Below are positions 7,016-12,145 of a stretch of 61,722 bases of DNA, one piece after another. Positions within the stretch are counted from its first letter, which is position 1, and each line of letters begins with the position of its first letter. Origin of the DNA: Bacteriovoracaceae bacterium (GTDB lineage: Bacteria; Bdellovibrionota; Bacteriovoracia; Bacteriovoracales; Bacteriovoracaceae); NCBI GenBank assembly GCA_020630335.1, contig JAHDBN010000014.1:1-61722 (forward strand), written 5' to 3'. The translations under genes and the position numbers were made by a program. The notes beneath the pieces were generated by a model that saw only the letters and a program-made list of their open reading frames with translations, was not told the DNA's origin and made no database searches.

Positions 7016-8332
7016 ATGAAAAGATATATTCCATTCTTTATGGCCTTGTTTTTAGGTGTTCACTCAAAAGCTGTTGTTAAAAATATCTATGGTGGATTGG
7101 GAATTAGGCATAACGATCTGTCTTCTCAGATTGATGACATCGATGGAAATAATTATTGGGTTGATCTCGATATTGGATATGATTATAAAAAGCCTTTTGT
7201 TGATCGAGAAGGTAAGTTTGATCTCTCCTTTAGGTATAATGATGCTGGACATTTAATGTATTCATTAAAAGAAGCTCAATTAACTCATCTTTGGAAAAAT
7301 AGTGAACTTAGCTATGGACGTGTCTTACTTGATTGGGTGGAGATTGATAAGGTTTGGGGGCTTGGAAAAGTTAATAATCTTCAAAACTTTGATTTTTTTA
7401 GACCAGGTCAAGAAGGATTAACGGGAGTTCGTTATAGTTATAGATTTTCTCAAAAATTTGATATGGATATATTTGGTTCTTTTCTTTATGTCCCACAATT
7501 AAATCCAGCTCTTGGAATTGATAAAAAAAATGGAACAATTACTTCTAAAAGTCCTTGGGGACAAGCTCCACAAAGTACGGTGGAAAGTGGAGGGGTAACT
7601 TATAATGTTAAGTACGCTGTAAATGTCCCAAGTATTACTGACGTTGCATTTAAACCAAGTTATGGAGTACGATTTCGATATACTCCAGTTAAAGATATTC
7701 ATTTAACAGCTTATGCCATGAGAAAACCTGAAAACTCATTAGCAACAGTAGTAAAAGCAACTATTGACTCTGCTTCTGATGTTAGCGTTAAAGTAAACAC
7801 ACAGCTATTCCACCATACATTGTTTGGTGGGCAACTAAGCGGTGATTTTGCGAAATACTGGAAAGCTTATCTTAGTTACCTAACAACTATTCCAGAAGAA
7901 AAGCCTGAAGATCTGACATCTAATTCATTTAATTTTGGTTTTGGTATAACAACGGAAAAATATCAAGAAGATTACCTTGGAGCCGGAGTTAAGTTTAAGA
8001 AAAATTCTTTTGCTGCTCATTTAGGTTATCTAGCAAGAGTGAGTGAGTTTGAAAGAAAATCTTTGCTTGATAGTATACCGAAGTGGTCTCAAGCACTAAA
8101 TGTTAATATTGATTATAATCTTAAAGAAAAATATTATCTTGGATTTGATCTTAAATACGATACTTTAACACACGACAAGCTTTATACCTTAGCACTTGGA
8201 TGGCAGCCTCATCATAACTTTAGAGTAAATGTAGGTGCTGATATTATCGGTACTCCTAAAACAGGAGATGGGTATTGGGTAAATTATAGAAGAAATGACT
8301 CTTATTTCACGGAGGTGAGATATGTATTTTAA
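7016..8332 (+). CDS. Predicted outer-membrane beta-barrel protein
   Basis: A 438-residue exported protein. The N-terminal signal peptide is MKRYIPFFMALFLGVHSKA. Many short alternating hydrophobic/polar strands rich in Tyr, Phe and Gly follow. It ends with the aromatic C-terminal strand YFTEVRYVF, whose final Phe is the BamA recognition feature of outer-membrane barrels. I cannot name a family; its size fits a 16-18-strand channel or porin. It overlaps the next gene, a large lipoprotein, by 11 bases, and the ribosome-binding site of that gene (ggaggtgag) lies inside this coding region. The two products probably act together at the outer membrane. Confidence 0.8.
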   Translation: MKRYIPFFMALFLGVHSKAVVKNIYGGLGIRHNDLSSQIDDIDGNNYWVDLDIGYDYKKPFVDREGKFDLSFRYNDAGHLMYSLKEAQLTHLWKNSELSYGRVLLDWVEIDKVWGLGKVNNLQNFDFFRPGQEGLTGVRYSYRFSQKFDMDIFGSFLYVPQLNPALGIDKKNGTITSKSPWGQAPQSTVESGGVTYNVKYAVNVPSITDVAFKPSYGVRFRYTPVKDIHLTAYAMRKPENSLATVVKATIDSASDVSVKVNTQLFHHTLFGGQLSGDFAKYWKAYLSYLTTIPEEKPEDLTSNSFNFGFGITTEKYQEDYLGAGVKFKKNSFAAHLGYLARVSEFERKSLLDSIPKWSQALNVNIDYNLKEKYYLGFDLKYDTLTHDKLYTLALGWQPHHNFRVNVGADIIGTPKTGDGYWVNYRRNDSYFTEVRYVF

Positions 8333-10973
8333 GTTTTTAATAAAATTAATCTTATTATGTACTTTTTTTAGTTGTGGAGATAATGGAATCTTCGGCAATG
8401 TTAACGATGGAGAAGGTGAGAGGCGAGAATTCGTTGATAAAAGAATTGCAAACTGTACATTAGATACAACTCAGTTTGAGTATATTCTAGAAAAAGATTT
8501 ATCAGGGCCAATTAACTGTCTTCATAACCAATTAAGTTTTTATATGGACCTTGCTGAAAAAGCGGATACCAGCATTAGTGCCGATAATGTTTCTTATGCT
8601 CAGCTAAAACAGCTGATAAACAATAAGTATCCACAGTTTGTTGATTTATTGCCTGACTTTAAATTTTATATTGAATTAATAAATTATGGAGTTGGGAACA
8701 AGAGAAATGACTTACTTGTAAAGACAGACTTGAGTATTTTAAAAGACTTTCTTTTAATGTTTAACACACAAGCAATTAAGATCTTTAAGATTCTAGAAGA
8801 TTATCCCTCTGATTATAGAATCTCTGTTTCAAAACATGAAAAGAAAAAAGCAGAGTTGCTAAATGCATTGGAGTTAATTGCTCTAAAAGCTAAAAATTCA
8901 AAAGGAGAGAACATCTCTATTTCTAATGTCTTAAACAGAAATAGAAGTAATAATAGCTCTTTTTCTTTGAATAGAGTGCTAACGTATTTCTTATCTGAAG
9001 ATCATAGTGAAATGTTAGAAAACATTTTAAAGTTTAACTTTTTAAAAAGAATGTTTCTTGGAGGAGATGATGATGCTCTAACAAGAAGAGAATTTAGGAC
9101 TCTAGCTGAGAATAAAATCATTCCAGGGCTTAATATGTTTTATGATTTCTATCGTTTCAAAAACATAGATTTTAACGACAAGACTCTTAAAACTGCATAT
9201 CAAACCTTGTACAGACATTCAGAGCAGTTTAGAAATCAACTTCTTTATAGAGGTAGTGATGTAAAGTACTACTTTACCTTAGATCATGTTTATTCTTTTT
9301 TGAGAACATTTGGGAATAATCTTTTTGGACTTAATATGGATAGTATTAAGATCGAAAAGTATGATTGGGAAATTGCTCGCATTAAAGAAATTTACCTCGG
9401 AAATACATCTAGAAATTTCACTTACGGTGATATGTCTCAAATGATTAACTTTCTTCAAGATATTCTAAAAATTGGAATCACTTTTCCTGATTTATATAAA
9501 AAGAATGAAGATAGGTTAAGCAAGGGAACAAAACTTGTAGAAAGTGAAATAGTTAACAACTTAAGACGAAATGATTTCTCTTATTATCAAGATTTTAGAA
9601 GAATTTTGATGAAGTATCGTTATTTTAAAGGAGAGAAAGCTTTACCTGTATTTGGTGATAATTACGCTAGGAGTTTAGGTGGAATAATTAATATTGCTCA
9701 ACTAGAACGAGCAATTACTCCTCTTATTAATTTCTATGAGAAAAAATATCCTTGTACAGAATTTGCTCATAAAGATATTCATGGACATAGAAACTCTAAA
9801 AATGATGGTAATTACTATATAAGAGCTTCTTATAGATGTGCTTCGGAAGATTATCAAGGAACGATTGCGGTTTCTCAATTAGCAATTGTCTTAAAAGAAT
9901 TCATAGGAATCTTATCTGATGTTGGTGTTATGATGAAAGGAGATGAGGAAGGAGGAGCTAGTAACGTTGCTTTGATGTCTGATCTTTTTCATTATACTTC
10001 AAATGGTGATGGCATAATTCAAATAGAAGAGATCACAGAATTTTTAATGAATCTAATTTATGCTGTTGATATAAAATCTAATATCTCAAGAATTGTTGCT
10101 CACCCTAGCGTTGGCTGTAAAGTTGTCGATACAATTAAGGCCGGTGATACAAGATATCCGCTTGCTATTAGAGGAGCAGGGAAAAGATATGATGCTAAGT
10201 GTGTGCGGAAAAACTTTTTTGAATTATTTAAAAAGCCACTAGGTACGAAACAAGGTAAATACTTTGATTATTTTACAAAATTTAAAAGCTATTACGATGA
10301 CATTGTTCGAGACCAAGCTGCCTTGTCTCGGTTTCAAATGGTTTTAGAAAAATTTACGAGACCTTGCTCTCAAGATAATATGCCTTTCTCTGAAGCGGAT
10401 ATCTTAGCGGTAATGGCCGGAATGTTTGCGATTGAATCTACAATTGCAAAATTTGATCAGAATAAAAATAATATTATTGATGTCGCTGAAGCAGATAAAC
10501 AAACATATGCTCATTTTAAACCTTCGCTGAAAAAGTTAAATTCAATATTGGAAAAAAGTGATTATTATACGAAACAAACATTTTGGTATGTACTAAAACA
10601 TAGAAAAGTTCCTTCAACGAAAGCCATAACTGATCTTACTCGCTTGACTTGGCCTTGGGCGAAAAAGGTTCCTGCAGATAGAACTACATTTGCTGCAGTC
10701 TTAATTGCACTAAATGGACAAGGAGACCTTGCAAATATTGAAGATACAAATTGTATTAATTATTGTTATGGAATCAATAGAGCTTATGTACCAACGGCCA
10801 ATAAATGTAGAGGAAGATTACCGCTTAAAGAGAAAAAATTAAGCTGTAACGCTTGGGCTGATGATAAAGTCCTGGGCGATATTGGAAGAAATGATTGTGA
10901 TCTTCCTAGTAAGTATGCGTGGGATGTAGAGAAGATACCTGAAACAGATACAAGCAAATGTGTTTGTAATTAA
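8322..10973 (+). CDS. Large predicted lipoprotein with two EF-hand-like loops
   Basis: An 883-residue protein of unknown function. The N terminus is a lipoprotein signal with a lipobox ending FFSC (Cys at about 19). Two calcium-loop-like segments are visible: TSNGDGIIQIEE (about 559-570; first ligand replaced by Thr) and DQNKNNIIDVAE (about 712-723). The C-terminal 70 residues are cysteine-rich (at least seven Cys), which suggests disulfides outside the cytoplasm. The rest is mainly helical with many charged and aromatic residues. A strong Shine-Dalgarno (ggaggtgag) sets the ATG at 8322. It is translationally linked to the barrel protein upstream. Confidence 0.8.
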   Translation: MYFKFLIKLILLCTFFSCGDNGIFGNVNDGEGERREFVDKRIANCTLDTTQFEYILEKDLSGPINCLHNQLSFYMDLAEKADTSISADNVSYAQLKQLINNKYPQFVDLLPDFKFYIELINYGVGNKRNDLLVKTDLSILKDFLLMFNTQAIKIFKILEDYPSDYRISVSKHEKKKAELLNALELIALKAKNSKGENISISNVLNRNRSNNSSFSLNRVLTYFLSEDHSEMLENILKFNFLKRMFLGGDDDALTRREFRTLAENKIIPGLNMFYDFYRFKNIDFNDKTLKTAYQTLYRHSEQFRNQLLYRGSDVKYYFTLDHVYSFLRTFGNNLFGLNMDSIKIEKYDWEIARIKEIYLGNTSRNFTYGDMSQMINFLQDILKIGITFPDLYKKNEDRLSKGTKLVESEIVNNLRRNDFSYYQDFRRILMKYRYFKGEKALPVFGDNYARSLGGIINIAQLERAITPLINFYEKKYPCTEFAHKDIHGHRNSKNDGNYYIRASYRCASEDYQGTIAVSQLAIVLKEFIGILSDVGVMMKGDEEGGASNVALMSDLFHYTSNGDGIIQIEEITEFLMNLIYAVDIKSNISRIVAHPSVGCKVVDTIKAGDTRYPLAIRGAGKRYDAKCVRKNFFELFKKPLGTKQGKYFDYFTKFKSYYDDIVRDQAALSRFQMVLEKFTRPCSQDNMPFSEADILAVMAGMFAIESTIAKFDQNKNNIIDVAEADKQTYAHFKPSLKKLNSILEKSDYYTKQTFWYVLKHRKVPSTKAITDLTRLTWPWAKKVPADRTTFAAVLIALNGQGDLANIEDTNCINYCYGINRAYVPTANKCRGRLPLKEKKLSCNAWADDKVLGDIGRNDCDLPSKYAWDVEKIPETDTSKCVCN

Positions 10974-11016: not shown

Positions 11017-12145
11017 ATGGAAGAATTAAAAGACCTCTTTTCAGAAAAAATCACTAAGCTTAAAAATTTTAAGACAGGAGTGGAGAACGTTCGGAGGTCA
11101 CTTTGACGTTGATACTAAAGAAGGACGCCTAAAAGAAATTAATACTCTAGAAGAAGATGCCAGTTTTTGGAATGATAACCAAAAAGCGTCAAAAATCCAA
11201 AAAGAGAAATCACTTATCCAAGAAGTTTTAAATTCTTATTCATCAGTTTCAGACTTATATGAAGAAATAGAAATTTTAGTAGAGTATGGAAAAGAAGGGG
11301 ATATGGATTCTGTAAAAGAAGCCATTGATTTAATCGATAAGTTTGAAGAGGTTTTTTCAGATGTAGAACAAAAAGCTTATCTTTCTGAAGAAACTGATAC
11401 GAATAATGCCATTATCTCTATTAATGCAGGAGCAGGTGGAACAGAATCTTGTGATTGGGCAAGTATGTTACAAAGAATGTTGATGAGATGGGCTGAGAGG
11501 CAAAAATTTAAAACAAAAATTTATGATTTTCAATATGGTGATTCTGCTGGAATAAAATCTGTAACTTTTCTTGTAGAAGGGCCTTTTGCTTTTGGCTTTT
11601 TAAAATCAGAGATAGGAATTCATCGACTAGTAAGAATTTCTCCTTTTGATTCAAATGCTAGAAGACATACTTCTTTTGCTTCGGTATTTGTCACTCCTGA
11701 AGTTGATGATGATATCGAAATAGATGTTCCGGATAGCGAACTTAGAATTGATGTGTATAGGGCAGGTGGAGCTGGAGGGCAATCAGTTAATACGACAGAC
11801 TCAGCTGTTAGGATTACTCATCTTCCTTCCAATATCGTTGTTACCTGTCAAAATGAACGATCACAACATCAAAATAAAGCAACTGCTATGAAAATCTTGA
11901 AATCCAGGCTTTATGAAAAAGCAATGGAAGAAAAAAGAGCTTCACAAAAAGAGATTGAGGATTCTAAAAAAGAGATTGGTTGGGGATCTCAAATTAGATC
12001 TTATGTTCTTCACCCTTATAAAATGGTTAAGGATCATAGAACCAATGAAGAAACAGGTTCAGCGGAGAAAGTATTAGATGGAGAAATAAATTCTTTTATA
12101 AAAACTTATCTGCAATGGAATGCTACTAATAAGGCCAGCTCGTGA
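11017..12145 (+). CDS. prfB: Peptide chain release factor 2, expressed by programmed +1 frameshift
   Basis: RF2 recognises UGA and UAA stop codons and triggers peptide release. An initial frame of 29 sense codons from ATG 11017 ends in TGA at 11104-11106. Reading resumes in the +1 frame from GAC at 11105 to the stop at 12143-12145, giving about 375 residues. The shift site is the classic one: an internal Shine-Dalgarno-like ggagg (11093-11097), then tca, then CTT TGA C. Downstream come the stop-recognition SPF motif (208-210) and the catalytic GGQ (253-255). UGA at the shift makes RF2 regulate its own level. The stop overlaps the GTG of lolC. Confidence 0.95.
11093..11107 (+). promoter_or_regulatory. 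RF2 programmed frameshift site
   Basis: The sequence is ggagg-tca-CTT-TGA-C. The ggagg pairs with the 16S anti-Shine-Dalgarno three bases ahead of the slippery CTT codon. The peptidyl-tRNA slips from CTT to TTT, and GAC is read next. Arrangement and spacing match the frameshift element known from E. coli prfB. The frame upstream (29 codons) and downstream both match RF2. Confidence 0.95.

Follow-up and report, generated by a model that had tools for sequence, protein, structure and literature searches.

The window analyzed here is a stretch of 61,722 nucleotides (positions 1 to 61,722 of contig JAHDBN010000014.1, assembly GCA_020630335.1, of a Bacteriovoracaceae bacterium), and it harbors two overlapping genes encoding a predicted outer-membrane beta-barrel protein and a large lipoprotein. 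Judged from the gene sequences and their relatives within the phylum Bdellovibrionota, the two products very probably form one undescribed surface complex. The following features were assigned to the locus:

7016-8332, + strand: barrel coding sequence, 438 amino acids, outer-membrane beta-barrel without Pfam or NCBIfam family
7016-7069, + strand: signal-peptide-like N-terminus of the barrel protein (residues 1-18), read from the sequence, with a presumed cleavage site
8311-8318, + strand: GGAGGTGA, Shine-Dalgarno-like stretch for the lipoprotein gene, located where the barrel gene encodes its C-terminal strand
8322-8332, + strand: 11-base gene overlap, in which the barrel's Tyr-x-Phe-stop codons include the lipoprotein ATG
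8322-10973, + strand: lipoprotein coding sequence, 883 amino acids, predicted outer-membrane protein, all-helical, with EF-hand-like lobes
8373-8375, + strand: codon of the lipobox cysteine (Cys18), near-invariant in 51 homologs
9996-10031, + strand: EF-like loop (TSNGDGIIQIEE, residues 559-570) with conserved ligands at positions 3, 5 and 12 and a non-acidic position 1
10455-10490, + strand: canonical EF-hand loop, residues 712-723, DQNKNNIIDVAE, with D1 kept by 49 and E12 by 50 of the 51 homologs
10719-10970, + strand: Cys-rich C-terminal tail, residues 800-883, predicted to be disordered and conserved no further than near relatives

The first-pass annotation of this locus, which was made from the nucleotide sequence alone, had reported an 11-base overlap of the two genes and a ribosome-binding site for the second gene within the first. 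Coordinates, product lengths and the overlap were found as claimed, and the Shine-Dalgarno-like stretch ends 3 bases 5' of the lipoprotein ATG at 8322, inside the barrel gene. Among 72 homologous pairs in which both genes were long enough, 56 are arranged in tandem with the barrel gene first. The exact 11-base overlap recurs in 31 of these 56 tandem pairs, and 12 further pairs possess an in-frame ATG or TTG at position -11. Moreover, 31 homologous junctions are G-rich at positions -13 to -7. Conservation of the overlap is attributed to the barrel terminus, since its Tyr-x-Phe-stop codons hold the ATG and the codons before them are G-rich. The overlapping reading frames would couple translation, so that both subunits would be made together.

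Pairing and co-evolution across Bdellovibrionota

In order to determine the distribution of the pair, 59 related genomes were searched with the barrel and, separately, with the lipoprotein of the window; 36 of them contain the barrel and 34 the lipoprotein. Within the window's own family (37 genomes), both genes were present in 29 genomes, neither in seven, and the lipoprotein alone in one (Fisher p = 8e-7, tallied by hand). When the phylum was searched with a profile, 241 of 289 genomes gave a barrel match (E <= 0.001), a count that includes weak ones. Of 24 genomes selected to cover different families, all contain the barrel (one of them as a weak match) and 23 the lipoprotein, and 36 of the 37 strong barrel matches (E < 1e-30) adjoin a lipoprotein gene. 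Among 24 genomes with an absent or weak barrel match, a lipoprotein match was obtained in only one, namely a fragment containing a stop.

Adjacency was also recorded for individual loci. In the fetched genome regions, a lipoprotein gene adjoins 75 of 78 barrel genes, the exceptions being L103, which lies at a contig end, L078 and L190. Within named genome records, the lipoprotein gene follows directly downstream in 45 of 48 barrel loci; this set shares some genomes with the fetched regions, and the counts must not be taken as independent. The three remaining named loci stop inside the barrel gene (L164, L166) or 179 bases past it (L146). Lack of co-localization among homologs, which had been named beforehand as the result that would speak against the pair, was looked for, and the outcome did not speak against it.

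Two pairs per genome were also encountered. A Bdellovibrio-type genome of the phylum carries two, and the window's own genome possesses a second, divergent pair (L062:7632-11397, - strand, contig C6), the lipoprotein of which shares 32% identity with that of the window. This pair adjoins genes for a dCTP-deaminase-like protein and an alpha/beta hydrolase, as does one pair of the Bdellovibrio-type genomes. The phylum-wide profile search counted a third, weaker barrel match in the window's genome. Where Bdellovibrio-type genomes or members of the window's genus carry two copies, each copy retains its partner on the barrel tree as well as on the lipoprotein tree. Based on all 72 pairs, the two trees are correlated with r = 0.92, while none of 500 label permutations exceeded 0.09; of 69 splits, 41 occur in both trees.

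Regarding gene order, the 16 pairs that are not in barrel-first tandem comprise 15 divergent pairs and one reversed tandem. One clade shows a head-to-head inversion of the pair with adjacency kept, and the divergent genes share an intergenic region of 106 to 373 bases. These arrangements bear on the explanation that an ordinary porin and an unrelated lipoprotein are merely held together by operon inertia. The porin-type fold of the barrel (see below) and the occurrence of the lipoprotein alone in some genomes would agree with such inertia. However, the pairing outlasts both inversion to the divergent orientation and a complete change of neighbors, and co-occurrence is near perfect, which renders this explanation highly improbable. 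Accordingly, of the objection that the first product might be a common porin unrelated to the lipoprotein, the porin-type fold was borne out, whereas 'unrelated' was not, since the trees co-evolve.

The number of lipoprotein genes per locus also varies. A barrel gene followed by two tandem lipoprotein genes of the same family was observed at L066, L074, L123, L132, L135, L139, L141 and L152, and likewise, with cut copies, at L142 and L143. Lone lipoprotein copies indicate that the lipoprotein may also act apart or together with a distant barrel. Paralogs that lack an adjoining barrel gene (L089-L092) are located directly upstream of a gene for a pyridoxal-phosphate-dependent decarboxylase and near a ceramidase-family gene, a context that suggests a sphingolipid-type cluster.

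In near relatives, the pair is placed between ybeY and prfB-lolC-lolD-bamA (gene labels are our own), and in other clades the neighbors are entirely different. Prediction of a function from neighboring genes was dropped, because these vary between clades. In the window, the pair lies beside genes which we take, from their sequences, to be lolC, lolD, bamA, lpxD and lpxA. The gene labeled prfB (11017-12145, + strand) features what resembles the classical site for programmed +1 frameshifting (CTTTGAC at 11101, with AGG upstream), on account of which the mechanically called open reading frame starts at 11303. Adjoining a Bdellovibrio-type pair, a run of envelope genes resembling a gliding-motility cluster was noticed by eye (L201:13064-17995, - strand), including a gene for a TonB-C-like protein.

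Predicted structures of the barrel and the lipoprotein

Scans against Pfam and NCBIfam did not assign the window barrel to any family. A single barrel match to PSD13_N (E 0.011) and viral-capsid matches from a sequence search of the PDB were taken as chance. The AlphaFold2 model, which was computed from 47 sequences, reached a mean predicted local distance difference test score (pLDDT) of 84.6 and a predicted template modeling score (pTM) of 0.80. Nearest structures to this model are OprD/Occ porins, AlgE and the Campylobacter jejuni MOMP (Z about 20, 290-335 residues aligned, about 10% identity). The strand string of the model comprises 22 elements, of which 188-191 is doubtful, and may be read as 20-22 strands. 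Furthermore, the window protein ends with ...RYVF, and among the 72 paired homologs the last residue is F in 63 and Y in three. Barrel fold and C-terminal aromatic residue together place the protein among the outer-membrane beta-barrels, in agreement with the initial description of the first product as a barrel ending in Phe.

Connectors between the strands strictly alternate between long (mean 14.3 residues) and tight ones (mean 3.0 residues). The long connectors are assigned to the extracellular side because the C-terminus is placed in the periplasm. Conservation among the 47 relatives amounts to 0.67 for long connectors, 0.57 for strands and 0.37 for tight turns, and the most conserved parts of the protein include the long extracellular-type loops 104-134, 156-187 and 413-428. 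Extracellular loops of porins usually represent their variable part. Since they are conserved here, it is probable that they either line the pore or interact with an invariable partner.

This conservation also touches on the idea, put forward in the first-pass annotation, that the pair represents a prey-contact or adhesion complex of predators. The pair is present in genomes of a phylum holding known predators, among them the Bdellovibrio-type genome with two pairs, and this is what speaks for the idea. However, the barrel loops are conserved rather than variable, a predation-specific neighbor was not found, and the apparent gliding cluster a few kilobases from one Bdellovibrio-type pair amounts to proximity only. 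Within the evidence collected, no specific pointer to predation over general outer-membrane work was found, and a prey-contact or adhesion role is considered very unlikely. Thus, of the earlier proposal of a barrel channel coupled to a large EF-hand lipoprotein, the coupling stands, whereas a role in secretion, adhesion or prey contact received no specific support.

For the window lipoprotein, too, no family was found by Pfam and NCBIfam scans. The protein features a signal peptide with a lipobox, as previously noted; the pattern is lipobox-like in 67 of the 72 paired homologs. The lipoprotein was modeled with AlphaFold2 from 49 sequences (pTM 0.79; residues 50-795 mostly above 80, tail under 50 in pLDDT). 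The model is helical and includes short strand bridges (89-91/131-133, 213-215/252-254, 319-320/365-366, also at 566, 689 and 719), which sit where EF-hand loops carry theirs. Structural comparison by means of VIA-align was led by EF-hand proteins, namely sorcin (Z 6.6), hippocalcin (6.5) and alpha-actinin (5.6), and also returned PR70, citrin and CDPK1. A Foldseek search with the whole lipoprotein yielded weak matches (E > 0.04), mostly to long helical-repeat proteins, and the match of its profile to the designed helical repeat 7ue2 among PDB sequences (E 0.023) was regarded as a helical-repeat artefact. An internal-repeat test related segments 166-285 and 286-400 to each other (E 5e-7) and, faintly, segment 46-165 to both (E 0.003-0.005). 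Five homologous lobes are not claimed, as this test gave no support for the two C-terminal EF regions.

Across 51 homologs spanning the phylum, mean column identity is 12% and only 12 columns are near-invariant. Five of these are cysteines (18, 45, 66, 599 and 627), and three represent EF ligand positions 1 or 12 (E570, D712 and E723; p about 1e-5). In loop 712-723, the 51 homologs show D at position 1 in 49, N/D at position 3 in 44, N/D/S at position 5 in 46, I/L/M/V at position 8 in all 51 and E at position 12 in 50; this loop thus possesses the ligands at positions 1, 3, 5 and 12 and the hydrophobic residue at position 8 that define an EF-hand loop. In a closer set of 49 homologs, insertions within the loop cut the count of sequences with all ligands to 27. 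EF-hand_6 was matched by 10 of 49 homologs at E <= 0.1 (best 3e-4). The two calcium-loop-like motifs described initially correspond to loops 559-570 and 712-723, both of which are conserved phylum-wide. Calcium binding by, or a calcium response of, the lipoprotein may be proposed from these loop residues. The Cys-rich tail, which had likewise been pointed out, is real and contains seven Cys in the last 84 residues. A similar tail was seen only in near relatives, and because of this restriction and its predicted disorder, it is placed outside the conserved machine.

Alternatively, the lipoprotein might be cargo that the neighboring barrel exports or flips to the cell surface, in a manner similar to Slam or type XI systems. 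Adjacency of the two genes would suit such a relation, and loci with one barrel and two lipoproteins would fit several cargos. However, the first barrel strand starts at residue 22, so an N-terminal helical domain of the Slam kind does not precede it, and on this ground membership in the Slam/type XI systems was rejected. The lipoprotein moreover has no C-terminal barrel domain, and tight co-evolution of whole families is less expected of cargo. A cargo relation is therefore regarded as quite unlikely.

Comparison with known systems and the proposed complex

The window barrel resembles the OprD/Occ and AlgE barrels in overall fold (Z 18-21 over 290-335 residues) and in size (about 400-450 amino acids). 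These nearest solved folds have 18 strands, compared with a tentative 20-22 in the barrel model. Further differences are the identity of about 10%, the conserved long loops and the lipoprotein partner. Despite the similar fold, no OprD Pfam match was found in the barrels.

AlgE is paired with AlgK in alginate export, and the combination of a barrel fold with a helical lipoprotein partner is common to that system and the pair described here. Correspondingly, the pair could represent a module for export of a polymer or glycolipid, with the barrel as exit pore and the helical lipoprotein as periplasmic scaffold. AlgE is among the closest solved folds of the barrel (Z 18-20), and four of 47 barrels, the window barrel not being among them, weakly match the capsule-assembly family Wzi (PF14052; E <= 0.1, best 4.7e-5). 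In addition, some pairs are located near heptosyltransferase and Kdo-transferase genes, and the envelope genes presumed beside the window pair (lolC, lolD, bamA, lpxD, lpxA) would be in line with export. However, in the neighbor survey no gene for polymer synthesis or export, synthases included, recurred beside the pair, and gene context varies between clades. Neither an alginate-export Pfam match in the barrels nor a convincing tetratricopeptide repeat (TPR) match in the lipoproteins was found; EF-hand-like lobes are present here, whereas AlgK carries TPR. An export module of this type is accordingly considered rather unlikely.

In SusC-SusD systems, too, a barrel adjoins a large lipoprotein of helical fold, and further lipoproteins are at times encoded in the operon. 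Plug, TonB-dependent receptor and SusD domains were not matched in Pfam searches of 47 barrels and 49 lipoproteins at E <= 0.1, and the analogy would be one of working, not of descent. In its working, the pair may most closely resemble SusC-SusD or AlgE-AlgK, although the defining sequence features of both were not found. The Bdellovibrio superfamily of PopA (Bd0427) shares with the window barrel the outer-membrane barrel and the phylum. It differs in that PopA is described as a pentamer of 16-stranded barrels with a helical plug, and in that no lipoprotein partner is mentioned in the passages on PopA that were consulted (PMC12228718). PopA was absent from the barrel matches shown by the profile search of PDB sequences and by structural alignment. 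Compared with sorcin, hippocalcin, PR70 and citrin, the lipoprotein shares a canonical 12-residue loop and helix-bridge-helix lobes; it differs by Z values under 8, by having one fully canonical loop, and by being a bacterial envelope protein with a lipid anchor and a length of about 800 residues. A literature lead on EF-hands in Bdellovibrio proved unrelated. When papers were searched by position for the corresponding HD100 locus tags, no usable match emerged, and Bd2361, which one paper lists, was not linked to this pair. The initial statement that no named system has this layout held, as neither a curated family nor a published description of the pair was found in the open-licence literature, to which the search was confined (subscription journals being outside its scope).

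Based on co-localization, co-occurrence, mirrored trees, gene overlap, lipobox, conserved EF loop and predicted folds, all of which were computed, genomic evidence gives good support to the complex, and from them we infer channel function, physical contact, calcium binding, gating, and the direction and substrate of transport. An obligate two-subunit outer-membrane complex, in which the lipoprotein serves as calcium-bound lid or scaffold on a selective channel, is proposed with about even confidence. The first product would be a monomer-type beta-barrel with conserved long loops that probably reach into the pore or cover it. The second would be a lipid-anchored helical scaffold of EF-hand-like lobes with at least one calcium-type site. 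It most likely rests on the barrel as lid, gate or docking arm and would govern the transit of one particular solute, either small or polymeric.

Several observations weigh against this proposal. Permutation of the labels removes shared species history together with the pairing, so part of r = 0.92 reflects ordinary descent. Two barrels away from contig ends (L078 and L190) are truly unpaired, and some lipoprotein paralogs lack a neighboring barrel gene, which means that the association has exceptions. Furthermore, every structural match of the lipoprotein has Z under 8, below the level convincing alone, the best Pfam EF-hand score of the window lipoprotein is 15.1 bits versus a curated cut-off of 25.4, and position 1 of loop 559-570 is not acidic. 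Finally, neighboring genes across the clades carry no consistent functional hint.

In predatory bacteria, a large share of the envelope proteins lacks annotation. The pair is present in most sampled genomes of the phylum, often in two ancient copies, and is therefore likely to matter for uptake, export or sensing. A further-reaching idea, held to be unlikely, is that it represents a core outer-membrane machine specific to Bdellovibrionota, as characteristic of them as SusCD is of Bacteroidota, in which the EF-lobe arm would open the pore in response to calcium outside or inside prey. As two adjacent genes, the pair is open to deletion in a tractable strain. If the lipoprotein does bind calcium, it would represent an unusual bacterial use of EF-hand lobes within an outer-membrane channel.

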